Of a stretch of DNA of 64,000 nucleotides, positions 5,564 to 49,185 are shown in pieces; within the stretch, counting starts at the first letter, position 1; the number at the start of each line of letters is the position of its first letter. The notes under the pieces were generated by a model. It searched no databases. It was not told the origin of the DNA and was given only the letters and a program-made list of their open reading frames with translations. Made by a program: the position numbers and the translations under genes. Source of the DNA: Paenibacillus faecis (GTDB lineage Bacteria > Bacillota > Bacilli > Paenibacillales > Paenibacillaceae); NCBI RefSeq assembly GCF_008084145.1, contig NZ_VSDO01000002.1:310001-374000 (forward strand), read 5' to 3'.

Positions 5564-7324
5564 ATGAATGAAGCAAAATTGAAGGAAGCAAAAACGAAGC
5601 CAGCGAATACAGCAAATACAACGGGTGCGAACGCAGCAAACGGGAAGTCCGGCCGACGCTCCAAGTCGTCTCCGCCGCCCGTGCGGATTTTTTCGCTTGG
5701 CGGCATAGGCGAAATCGGAAAGAATATGTACGGGATCGAATACAAGAACGAGATTGTGATCGTGGACGCCGGATTGAAATTTCCGGATTCCCGTTTGTCC
5801 GGCATCGATTACATCATTCCCGATATCAGTTACCTCACGCAAAATCAGCATAAAATCAAAGGATTGTTCCTGACCCACGGCCACGAGGATCACATCGGCG
5901 CCCTGCCGTTTGTCCTTCGGCAGCTGTCGGTACCCGTTTATGGGGGAGCGCTGACGATCGGTCTGGTGCGTGCCAAGCTGGAGGAATACCGGATGCTGGG
6001 CGAGGTCAAGCTGCATGTGTTTGATGAGAACGACCGCTTCGATTATCAGCAGCTGTCGGTGCATTTTTTCCGGACGACCCACAGCATACCTGATGCCTAC
6101 GGCATCGTGATCGATACGCCATACGGTGCGGTGGTGCATACCGGAGACTTTAAATTCGATTTTACGCCGGAGGATAAGCCGGCGAATTTGTTCAAAATGG
6201 CCAGCGTCGGCGGGGAAGGCGTGCTTGCGCTTTTGGCGGACAGTACGAACAGTGAAAAAGAAGGCTTCACCCCCTCGGAACGGCGGGTGGGCGGCGCCAT
6301 TTTGGAAGCGTTTCGGCAGTGCGACGGAAGAATTCTGTTCGCGACGTTCGCGTCGAACGTGCACCGCCTGCAGCAGGTGGTAGATGCGGCGATGCAATGC
6401 AACCGGAAGATCGTCGTGATCGGCCGCAGCATGGAGAAGGTGTTCGCGATCGGTCAGGATCTGGGCTATATCCGGGTTCCGGAGGGCATGCTGGTCGATG
6501 TGAAGCATATCGACCGGTATGAGGACCGGCAAATCCTCATCGTCTGCACGGGCAGCCAGGGCGAGCCGAACGCGGCTCTCAGCCGGATCGCTTCGGGAGC
6601 GCACCGCTCCGTGCAAATCTATCCGGGGGATACGGTCATTTTCTCTTCATCTCCGATTCCGGGAAATGGTCAAAATGTAAACCGGAGCATCGATATGCTG
6701 ATGCGCGCGGGCGCCCATGTCATCTACGGCTCTATTTTCGACATCCATACGTCGGGACACGGCTGCCGCGAGGATCTTAAGCTGATGCTGAGCTTTATTC
6801 GACCGAAATTTTTTATTCCGATTCATGGGGAATACCGTATGCTGTTAAGTCACAAGAACCTGGCGCTGCAAACGGGGCTGACGGAGGACCGGGTGTTCGT
6901 CATGAATATCGGCGATACGCTGTCGGTTTACCGGAACCGCGCAAAGCGGGGCAGAACGATCCCGGCGGGCGAGGTCTTTATCAGCAACGGCGAAATGCGC
7001 CTCAATGAAGATGAGCTGGTTGAAGAACGTATGGAACTGGCCCAGGAAGGCATCGTCGTGGTCGTTATGACCGTAGACAGCCGGACGGGCAAGATTTTAT
7101 CCGGTCCGGACATCGTGACCCGGGGATTCGTATACATGCAGGACGCCCGGCCGCTGCTGCGGCGTGCGGAAGCCGCTTTGCGGCGCAGCTTGAACCGTAT
7201 GGGGGAGAAGGAGACGTACAGCCAAAAGCTTTGGCTGCGCACGACCCAACAAGTGATGCGGAGATATTTTCAGCGGGAAGTCGGCAGAACGCCGCATATC
7301 ATGCCTTCGGTACTTGAGGTTTAG
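5564..7324 (+). CDS. RNase J family ribonuclease
   Basis: Metallo-beta-lactamase/beta-CASP ribonuclease, 586 residues, with endo- and 5'-exonuclease activity on RNA in this family. The zinc motif LTHGHEDHIG is near residue 105, the MBL second histidine region FFRTTHSIPDAYG near 170, and beta-CASP motifs LLADSTNSE, TFASNVHRL, GRSMEK and CTGSQGEP follow. The first 38 residues are a low-complexity Ala/Lys/Thr/Asn extension before VRIFSLGGIGEIGKNMY, where typical RNase J proteins begin. GAGAGG at 5547-5552 supports the ATG. Whether it corresponds to RnjA, RnjB or a third copy cannot be told here. Confidence 0.93.
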   Translation: MNEAKLKEAKTKPANTANTTGANAANGKSGRRSKSSPPPVRIFSLGGIGEIGKNMYGIEYKNEIVIVDAGLKFPDSRLSGIDYIIPDISYLTQNQHKIKGLFLTHGHEDHIGALPFVLRQLSVPVYGGALTIGLVRAKLEEYRMLGEVKLHVFDENDRFDYQQLSVHFFRTTHSIPDAYGIVIDTPYGAVVHTGDFKFDFTPEDKPANLFKMASVGGEGVLALLADSTNSEKEGFTPSERRVGGAILEAFRQCDGRILFATFASNVHRLQQVVDAAMQCNRKIVVIGRSMEKVFAIGQDLGYIRVPEGMLVDVKHIDRYEDRQILIVCTGSQGEPNAALSRIASGAHRSVQIYPGDTVIFSSSPIPGNGQNVNRSIDMLMRAGAHVIYGSIFDIHTSGHGCREDLKLMLSFIRPKFFIPIHGEYRMLLSHKNLALQTGLTEDRVFVMNIGDTLSVYRNRAKRGRTIPAGEVFISNGEMRLNEDELVEERMELAQEGIVVVVMTVDSRTGKILSGPDIVTRGFVYMQDARPLLRRAEAALRRSLNRMGEKETYSQKLWLRTTQQVMRRYFQREVGRTPHIMPSVLEV

Positions 7325-7339
7325 CGATAGATAAGGATT

Positions 7340-7387
7340 AGAGGGGGTCCCAAGAGTCATCGTAGATGACTGAGGGGCACCCTCTTT
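7340..7387 (+). terminator. Terminator after RNase J gene
   Basis: A two-part hairpin: inner perfect stem AGTCATC-GTA-GATGACT within an imperfect outer GAGGG...CCCTC stem, followed by TTTTATT. The first structured repeat element begins only a few bases later. Confidence 0.75.
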
Positions 7388-7392
7388 TATTA

Positions 7393-7957
7393 CGCGAAGC
7401 GTGCGAAACAACATACCACCTGCTATGCGGGTGGTGTAGTGATACTTATATCAAAACCACCTGATGGGGTCGTTATCATAGGAGTGTTCAAGCTGCTATG
7501 TATAACGAAAGGTAAGGTGGTTTAATGACTAATCGAAGTGATTGTCACATACAAAGAGGCGCCTAGTGTGCGTGCTTCCAAACTACCAACTCCAAAAGGA
7601 TGCAAATCTGCAGGTATTTAAGCCGCTTCCCGAGGGAATGCGAAAAAAGATGCAAATCTGCAGGCATTTCCAGCGATTTTAGAGAAACGAGCCGGTTTCG
7701 TCAAAAATTCCTGCAGATTTGCAGGAATTTTGAAATTTTGGACCCCGAACAAGAAAAAAACATGCACATATGCAGGAATTCCATATTATCAAGGTAGCTG
7801 AAGGGGTATTAGTAATAAACGCACCCCTTCAGGGGTAGGCAAAAGCGGCAACAGCATAGTAGCTTGAACGTAGTGAAAGCTAGCGGCTTTAGACACGAGC
7901 CGGTAATAAAGGAAAGGCTTATACCCCAAAAGCAAACCACCCGTTGGACGGGTGGTT
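7393..7957 (+). repeat. Structured repeat element, copy A (~565 bp)
   Basis: First of three related elements (others at 48600-49173 and 61337-61722). It begins CGCGAAGCGTGCGAAAC, has a left hairpin ACCACCTGC-TAT-GCGGGTGGT, and ends in the hairpin AACCACCCG-N5-CGGGTGGTT. Complementary arms GTTCAAGCTGCTATG (7486-7500) and CATAGTAGCTTGAAC (7855-7869) could pair over about 350 bp. The interior carries four copies of a TGCAAATCTGCAGG-type palindrome (7601, 7651, inverted at 7710, 7763), the first two exactly 50 bp apart. Hairpins at both ends suggest a non-autonomous IS200/IS605-like element; a large structured RNA is the alternative. Open frames inside are repeat translations, not credible genes. 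Confidence 0.8.
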
Positions 7958-7972
7958 ATGACTGCCATCGGT

Positions 7973-30617: not shown

Positions 30618-30691
30618 TCGAGACGACAGGATTTGAACCTGCGACCTCTTGCTCCCGAAGCAAGCGCTCTACCAAGCTGAGCCACGTCTCG
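30618..30691 (-). tRNA. tRNA-Pro (anticodon CGG)
   Basis: 74 nt on the minus strand. It folds as acceptor CGAGACG/CGTCTCG with discriminator A, D-arm GCTC..GAGC, anticodon stem CTTGC/GCAAG with loop TTCGGGA (anticodon CGG, reading CCG), variable AGGTC, and T-arm GCAGG-TTCAAAT-CCTGT. The CCA end is not encoded. It is preceded, on its own strand, by the leuS promoter region in the opposite direction. Confidence 0.95.
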
Positions 30692-30834: not shown

Positions 30835-31105
30835 TGATTTAACTGCAAAATGAATTAAACATTGAAGAGGAATATTAGTTTTCAATGCTGCCACCCCAGA
30901 GAGCCGGCGCTTGGTGAAAGCCGGATGGAGATTGAAGACGAACTCGCCTCGGAGTTATGATGCAAAACATCATCGTCTTACCCGCGTTAAGGGTGTAAAG
31001 GGAGCGAACGACAAAGCATGTCCGACGCTAACTAGGGTGGTACCACGGGAATTTCCTCTCGTCCCTAGCGATGATACGCTATGGATCGGGAGGTTTTTTT
31101 ATATT
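30835..31105 (+). ncRNA. Leucine T-box leader of leuS
   Basis: Transcription-attenuating riboswitch that reads uncharged tRNA-Leu. The stem I landmarks are CAGAGAGCCGG and the GGTGAAAGCC loop at 30897-30922. The specifier is GAA-CTC, with CTC (Leu) at 30943-30945. The T-box AGGGTGGTACCACGG is at 31034-31048. The competing terminator CCTCTCG...CGGGAGG with internal TAGCG/CGCTA and seven T residues spans 31055-31100. Uncharged tRNA-Leu pairs with CTC and the T-box bulge to favour readthrough into leuS. Confidence 0.93.
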
Positions 31106-48588: not shown

Positions 48589-48599
48589 TTGGGGGTTAG

Positions 48600-49173
48600 C
48601 CAGTTGAACTCGCGAAGCGTGCGAAACAAAAACCTGCTATGTCGGTGGTGTAGTGCTGCTTATAGTAACAAACCAACCCGATGGGGTCGTTATCATAGGG
48701 GTGTTCAAGCTACTATGTTGTATACCGAAAGGAAAAGGTGGCTTGATGGCTAATCGAAGTGATATGTCACATCCAAAGAGGCGCCTAGTGTGCTTCCAAG
48801 CTTCCAACGCCAAAAAGATGCAAATCTGCAGGTATTTAAGCGGATTCCCGAGGGAATGCGAAAAAAGATGCAAATCTGCAGGCATTTCCAGCGATTTTAG
48901 AGAAACGAGCCGGTTTCGTCAAAAATTCCTGCAGATTTGCACGAATTTTGAAATTTTGGGCCCCGAACAAGAAAAAAGCTTGCAGATATGCAGGAATTTT
49001 AAGTTATCAAGGTTGTTTGAAGGGGTACTGGTAATCATCGCACCCCTTCAGGGGGGGGCAAAAGCGGAAAACGGCATAGTAGCCTGAACGTAGTGAAAGC
49101 CAGCGCCTTTAGACGCTAGCCGGTAATAAATGCTTATAGCCTTAAAGCAAACCACCCGTTCACACGGGTGGTT
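48600..49173 (+). repeat. Structured repeat element, copy B (~570 bp)
   Basis: Same architecture as copy A: CGCGAAGCGTGCGAAAC start (here preceded by CCAGTTGAACT, shared with copy C) and terminal hairpin AACCACCCG-N6-CGGGTGGTT at 49150-49173. Long-range arms GTTCAAGCTACTATG (48703-48717) and CATAGTAGCCTGAAC (49076-49090) are present, as is a conserved GAAGGGGT/ACCCCTTC stem at 49019-49050 whose loop differs from copy A. The palindromic TGCAAATCTGCAGG units are at 48819 and 48869, again 50 bp apart. It fills the gap between the LacI gene and the convergent GH130 gene. Confidence 0.8.
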
Positions 49174-49185
49174 TGAATTCATGGA

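Follow-up and report, generated by a model that had tools for sequence, protein, structure and literature searches.

A probable chimeric IS200-derived MITE behind terminators in Paenibacillus faecis, and a covarying 5'-3' pairing in tnpA-bearing IS200 elements

Three copies of an element of about 570 bp lie in the window, i.e. the whole 64,000-nucleotide stretch of the Paenibacillus faecis genome analysed here, and they raise the question of what the element is, why it stands where it stands, and why two distant segments within it are complementary. The first-pass annotation had described hairpins at both ends that recall IS200/IS605-type ends and had read the element either as a non-autonomous derivative, possibly carried in trans, or as a large non-coding RNA. 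We consider it highly likely that the best explanation is a composite one: the element is a chimeric MITE, it was inserted behind terminators, and its complementary arms were inherited from a pairing in tnpA mRNA.

The three copies and the ACCACC/GGTGGT hairpins at both ends of copy A were recovered (Table 1); in copy A the left end is shorter than usual by about 20 bp. The stem GAAGGGGT/ACCCCTTC described earlier also exists, but its left half is supplied by a separate repeat inside the element, whose end it forms. The 15-nt long-range arms are present in copy A, where they are complementary with one G.T pair, and in copy B, whose core contains an A.C mismatch at one position. The earlier statement that loops or G-T pairs account for the differences between copies is accordingly inexact. 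The fold of copy A is better than that of 100 of 100 shuffles (z -6.7; z -6.6 when folding from the predicted transcription start), and no Rfam family, HEARO and omega-RNA included, matches copy A at gathering score. A protein product was considered and rejected: among 19 copies the 94-aa consensus frame is full in one (L010), another (L004) has 113 aa, and the others are shorter. Elsewhere in the window, a tRNA gene (30618-30691, minus strand) lies near a T-box leader (30853-31069, plus strand).

Table 1. Features of the element and its copies in the window
Feature	Position	Strand	Basis or remark
Copy A of the element, very probably an IS200-derived MITE	7392-7963	+	sequence; ~570 bp
Copy B of the element, 3' of a terminator	48590-49179	+	arms 48703-48717 and 49075-49089
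Copy C of the element, 3' of a terminator	61326 to about 61721	+	3' part absent
Intrinsic terminator of the upstream gene 5564-7324	7341..7391	+	hairpin and TTTTATT; copy A insertion point is its foot
Left-end hairpin ACCACC..GGTGGT	7415..7435	+	sequence; shared with IS200 group a
-10-like box TATCAT	7474..7479	+	predicted start ~7486; from 50 aligned IS200 elements and MITE copies
5' arm GTTCAAGCTGCTATG of the long-range pairing	7486..7500	+	sequence, copy A
Remnant of the first 11 tnpA codons	7525..7556	+	comparison with the G017 parent; frame disturbed in copy A
Inner palindromic repeat	7563..7812	+	also alone elsewhere in the genome, both orientations
3' arm CATAGTAGCTTGAAC of the long-range pairing	7855..7869	+	sequence, copy A
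Right-end hairpin ACCACCCG..CGGGTGGT	7936..7956	+	sequence; shared with IS200 group a

The two ends of the element recur approximately 690 bp apart in related genomes, which is the size of an IS200. In one relative (G017), a 757-bp IS200 (L031) consists of the element's 5' part, a tnpA that begins MANRSDMSHTKW and is frameshifted, and the element's 3' part. In this genome and, with the same spacing, in a second one (G044), the 5' part (query positions 1-163/167) and the 3' part (420-565) flank tnpA at 85-89% identity, and a third genome (G041) has matching end fragments. In the element's own genome, the PF01797 (Y1 transposase) profile has 14 matches, and three IS200 copies (group a, L063-L065) carry an open tnpA of 157 aa (136.8 bits against PF01797) and have a left end, a left hairpin and a right end that by eye match those of the element; a second set (group b, L058-L062) has an open frame of 173 aa and, by eye, different ends. 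Compared with the G017 parent, the element keeps the left end, the 5'UTR, 11 tnpA codons and the 3' region, and a palindromic repeat of about 250 bp stands where the rest of tnpA would be. It thus shares with IS200, i.e. with the group a copies and with the G017 and G044 forms, the ends, the 5'UTR, the tnpA start, the 3' region and, as discussed below, the position behind terminators, but has no tnpA beyond codon 11. As in IS200/IS605 MITEs, there are subterminal hairpins at both ends, there are no terminal inverted repeats, and both ends are held in common with an autonomous Y1-transposase partner. Judged from these sequence comparisons, the element is almost certainly an IS200-derived non-autonomous MITE, and the group a copies could mobilize it in trans. 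A search for an element sharing the ends had been proposed in the first-pass annotation, and of the two readings offered there the non-autonomous derivative with IS200/IS605-type ends is the one that the comparisons support. On contig C6 of this genome (~156-158 kb), the IS200 copies L067/L068 stand in a row, the right end of one meeting the left end of the next across a short stretch of N, and their tnpA frame is broken.

A DNA search of the element's own genome gave strong matches at 40 or more places and 19 short ones (40 of 204 first-look candidates scored), and a probe of the 3' outer part gave 75 candidates, of which 40 were scored. On contig C2 (1,246,509 bp), a manual count from 41 clusters gives 17 composite copies, and the inner repeat stands alone at 12 other places, the remaining clusters being short or palindromic matches; the stand-alone copies lie on both strands (five on plus, seven on minus; e.g. 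201102-201313). Within the inner repeat, cores resembling GCAAATCTGCAGG occur several times and the two ends are complementary over a short length (CTAGTG/CACTAG); weaker relatives of the repeat occur in G044. Near one composite copy (L010), a second left-end-like motif lies on the opposite strand, at ~2385 of the reverse complement of that locus. Matches were found in four of 40 genus genomes, its own included (E 1e-20), and the composite solely in its own.

IS200/IS605 MITEs are themselves already known: copies of 368 bp (17) and 570 bp (13) are described for H. walsbyi in the accessible part of PMC3852290, and a PATE-like element is known in Halanaerobium (PMC7290912, likewise in part). As far as these accounts go, all of these elements are non-autonomous, lack terminal inverted repeats and are similar in size and copy number. 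Unlike them, the present element retains the full 5'UTR and 3' region of a single-tnpA IS200, fused to another repeat, and its called left ends are almost always behind terminators. The chimeric make-up is new among the IS200/IS605 MITEs described in these sources, and because of it we regard the element as a new form of such a MITE.

A terminator-like hairpin with a T-tract lies directly upstream of 38 of the 40 MITE copies with a called left end (50 own-genome copies examined; C2:635041, one of the 40 places with strong matches, left out), as opposed to 111 of 1000 random C2 positions; the two misses are a false left-end call (L259) and a copy that stands behind the right end of another IS200 (L023). 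If the hairpin is required to have a dG <= -12, 37 of 39 insertion points pass, two of the 39 being mis-anchored (L313, L337), compared with 116 of 400 sampled intergenic T-tract motifs, and a T-tract alone is therefore insufficient to explain the siting. The terminator before copy A (locus L001) reaches -27.1 kcal/mol in this test. The same position is seen in IS200 itself: (i) by eye, all five group b copies stand behind terminators, (ii) in other genomes, 30 of 38 distinct IS200 left ends pass for hairpin and T-tract, a count that has no control set and to which a single genome can contribute several sites, with Paenibacillus, a Lachnospiraceae MAG, Photorhabdus and an Anaerolineales MAG among the hosts of passing sites and with one false motif among the eight that fail, and (iii) by eye, seven of the eight E. 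coli IS200 loci fetched begin behind a terminator. What precedes the IS200-like copy at the eighth locus (L373, plasmid pYLMB15b) is the reverse-transcriptase gene of a group II intron with a hairpin, not an ordinary terminator.

T-rich sequence stands to the left of the MITE copies. The one copy for which an empty site was compared, the E. coli IS200C between fabF and pabC, was cut relative to the MG1655 site between TTTTTTCTT and AGC, with an exact junction and zero duplication. Terminators as IS200 targets were not found in the literature searched, in which the core IS200 papers are incompletely covered. In the accessible part of a survey, a convergent-gene setting is over-represented for IS200 among other families (PMC9208149), which agrees with terminator siting.

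All 17 composite copies on C2 lie on the plus strand, which is the leading-strand sequence: the GC skew of C2 is positive in 13 of 13 blocks, and the skew of the flanks is positive in 44 of 50 MITE copies. Gene orientation partly confounds this bias since 712 of 944 C2 ORFs of at least 150 aa are also on plus, and simple arithmetic puts the chance of 17 of 17 by gene orientation alone at ~0.008. In G017, four of five copies below 1.46 Mb are on plus and nine of nine above 2.48 Mb on minus, in coordinates for which the origin is not located. For IS608 and ISDra2, insertion into the lagging-strand template is described in the available portion of PMC6006769, and the bias seen here is consistent with such insertion, partly confounded as it is with the orientation of genes and terminators.

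Could the copies instead be inert, decaying repeats, with the terminator adjacency merely reflecting the loss of copies that landed elsewhere? Their identity to copy A is 83-91%, many are truncated, and no empty site of the MITE itself was found, as might be expected of such repeats. However, hairpin-less intergenic T-tract sites are common (284 of 400 fail the -12 cut) and yet hardly used, so that selection against gene disruption alone is inadequate as an explanation, and the genome does contain IS200 copies whose tnpA is open and whose ends match; we regard inert decay as unlikely. Group IIC introns, too, insert behind terminators, and this habit together with GTGCG in the left end of copy A would suit an ORF-less derivative of such an intron. 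That reading is refuted by the IS200 parent and by the ends, 5'UTR and tnpA start, all of which are those of IS200, while no group II family matches copy A at gathering score; we give it practically no weight. Insertion of an IS200-derived MITE at terminators thus remains the preferred reading of the siting.

The function of the arms is best approached through IS200 elements that have kept tnpA. In these elements the 5' arm lies in the tnpA 5'UTR and the 3' arm 3' of the stop codon, with arms at equivalent places in group a (GTTCAGGCTCA/TGAGCCTGAAC) and group b (GTCTGCCAACCGC/GCGGTTGGCAGAC). The pairing was assessed in fixed windows (-55 to -15 before the ATG; +10 to +70 behind the stop) for 90 elements, i.e. 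80 named IS200 loci, seven of 17 viral ones, one each of groups a and b from the element's own genome, and E. coli IS200C; 64 were usable, the others being set aside for a disrupted frame, a different first codon or flanks that were too short, and 53 were left after removal of near-duplicates. In these 53, the cognate helix score is 29.3 as compared to 20.9 for permuted partners (sd 0.55, z 15.5, 0/5000), 35 elements rank their cognate 3' window among the best 10%, and an energy-based version of the test gives z -10 (0/20000). Of the control windows, seven inside tnpA stay within z +-0.8 and two lying farther downstream score z 1.2 and -2.0. Reversal of the 3' window yields z 3.2, so that composition contributes slightly, and the reverse complement of that window yields z 1.3. 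Column by column, in 52 elements (L200 lost its anchor, and the anchors of the own group b element, E. coli IS200C and L191 were placed by motif), changes on both sides are found in 15 of 16 columns, the two-sided change cells number 132 versus 69 on average and 88 at most in 200 permutations, and the paired fraction is 0.83 versus at most 0.74 on permutation.

The 5'-3' pairing covaries across tnpA-bearing IS200 elements. Among TnpA relatives, for which the best of several start codons was used and five of 13 loci had no usable frame or flank, three relatives of group b (L339, L340, L345) have helices of 13-16 nt in other letters, one (L344) has a 14-nt helix of the group a type, and three more distant loci (L355, L358, L364) have helices of 8-12 nt alone. 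In E. coli IS200C the pairing is weak (12 bp with four G.U pairs; rank 18 among 53). Such a pairing in IS200 was not found in the literature searched, with the same incomplete coverage of core papers. Behind tnpA in IS200 elements such as L188, L194 and L203, the 3' arm is succeeded by more stretches able to form hairpins (AGCCAGCG..CGCTGGC-like), as though the 3' region were a structured RNA itself.

Upstream of the arm, a box agreeing with TATAAT at 5 or 6 of its 6 letters is present in 41 of the 50 elements anchored, at a spacing of 5-6 nt in 40 of the 41, and shuffles reach the box criterion in 19%. Over nine columns from the predicted start, the paired fraction in 49 elements is 0.98-1.00, and upstream of it the pairing falls from 0.92 one base up (column 0) to 0.47 (-1) and 0.08 (-2). 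The box spacing and this fall-off together place the beginning of the helix where the transcript should begin. For Salmonella IS200, the accessible part of PMC12594629 reports a tnpA start that lies at bp 40, ahead of the stem, so the equation of the arm with the transcript 5' end may fail there, and this start and the weak E. coli pairing may weaken any universal rule for the arms.

An inverted repeat joins the sequence upstream of the -10 box with the side of the ribosome-binding site (RBS) in a helix of 5-17 bp; in Salmonella IS200, according to the same partial source, such a stem hides the RBS (PMC12594629). We suggest that a read-through RNA, holding both halves of this stem, would be silent, and that an internally started RNA would hold only one half. 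The Rfam family RF01405 (STnc490), which matches E. coli IS200C (L240) and a group b IS200 (L058), i.e. two of eight sources, covers the IS200 5' region upstream of tnpA without the 3' arm; at gathering score it has no match in the window nor in L001, L031 and L063. A parallel is the icaR mRNA of S. aureus, for which 5'-3' UTR pairing is described in the available part of PMC3868564: in both cases a single mRNA pairs with itself through its two UTRs, but the gene is another one, and in IS200 it is the predicted extreme 5' end that pairs, covarying across a group of mobile elements.

Within the MITE copies the evidence is of a different kind. In 19 aligned copies of 22 chosen, the arm cores have identities of 0.988 (5') and 0.971 (3'); since windows in the inner repeat reach 0.96-0.99, we claim no special conservation of the arms. 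Among 50 copies, no compensated arm changes were found and the outer-arm variants are uncompensated: the 5' variant ACGATG occurs in nine, and none of the 3' arms listed has the matching change. Selection on structure between copies, as first proposed, is thus unsupported, and covariation, for which a test had been suggested, is seen in the 53 tnpA-bearing elements and not in the MITE copies, whose pairing is best read as inherited from a tnpA-bearing IS200. The strong fold of copy A, together with a -10-like box (5 or 6 of 6) in 12 of the 19 copies, would agree with a functional large non-coding RNA under selection for its fold. The fold, however, is largely due to the inherited IS200 structures and the palindromic inner repeat, the compensated changes that such selection leaves are missing, Rfam is silent at copy A, and the composite occurs in one of 40 genus genomes; a dedicated RNA is not needed, and we consider it very improbable.

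Alternatively, the arms may act in single-stranded DNA, pairing in the lagging-strand template and joining both ends for TnpA with no role in RNA. Both arms do lie on the strand that IS200/IS605 elements transpose, and their cores are well kept in a MITE that has no tnpA to regulate. Yet the helix sets in together with the predicted transcript, and pairing drops off abruptly on the upstream side, a limit that folding of DNA does not need, and the outer-arm variants of the MITE copies are uncompensated; the many G.U pairs in the column table also favor RNA, although DNA tolerates G.T too. We find a role in DNA alone rather unlikely, and hold that the arms probably act in the tnpA mRNA.

Combining these data, we suggest that the MITE arose as a chimera of an IS200 of the single-tnpA branch in which the rest of tnpA was swapped for an unrelated palindromic repeat. 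TnpA (HUH-Y1) supplied by IS200 copies in the same genome would bind the two end hairpins in the single-stranded lagging-strand template, excise the element and reinsert it on the 3' side of a short T-rich target, where an intrinsic terminator has its foot. Because the hairpin and T-tract of a terminator resemble the element's own right end (a hairpin and TTTGATT), the terminator may be captured as a right-end mimic. The arms would correspond to the predicted 5' end of the IS200 tnpA mRNA and to a site ~45 nt behind the stop codon; in a live IS200 they would pair, most likely in the mRNA, and limit TnpA translation or set mRNA stability, and the MITE would have inherited them from its IS200. 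A broader model, which we put forward tentatively and hold slightly less probable than its negation, joins four statements: IS200 elements across bacteria lock the extreme 5' end of an internally started tnpA mRNA to its own 3'UTR by a covarying helix of 10-16 bp, transcripts that read in from outside the element are kept silent by an inverted repeat on either side of the promoter, intrinsic terminators are chosen as right-end mimics by virtue of their hairpin and T-tract, and arm-bearing MITE copies could feed back on tnpA mRNA in trans.

IS200 is widespread and, in the enteric bacteria studied, is described as essentially immobile, and the brakes reported for it in the accessible part of PMC12594629 are the stem that masks the RBS and an antisense RNA. 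Covarying base pairing of the tnpA mRNA 5' end with the 3'UTR would add a further brake, and one that is directly testable. Targeting of terminators would explain how these elements persist, in that entry is intergenic, no gene is broken and little read-through reaches the element, and the MITE illustrates how one genome became filled with such copies.
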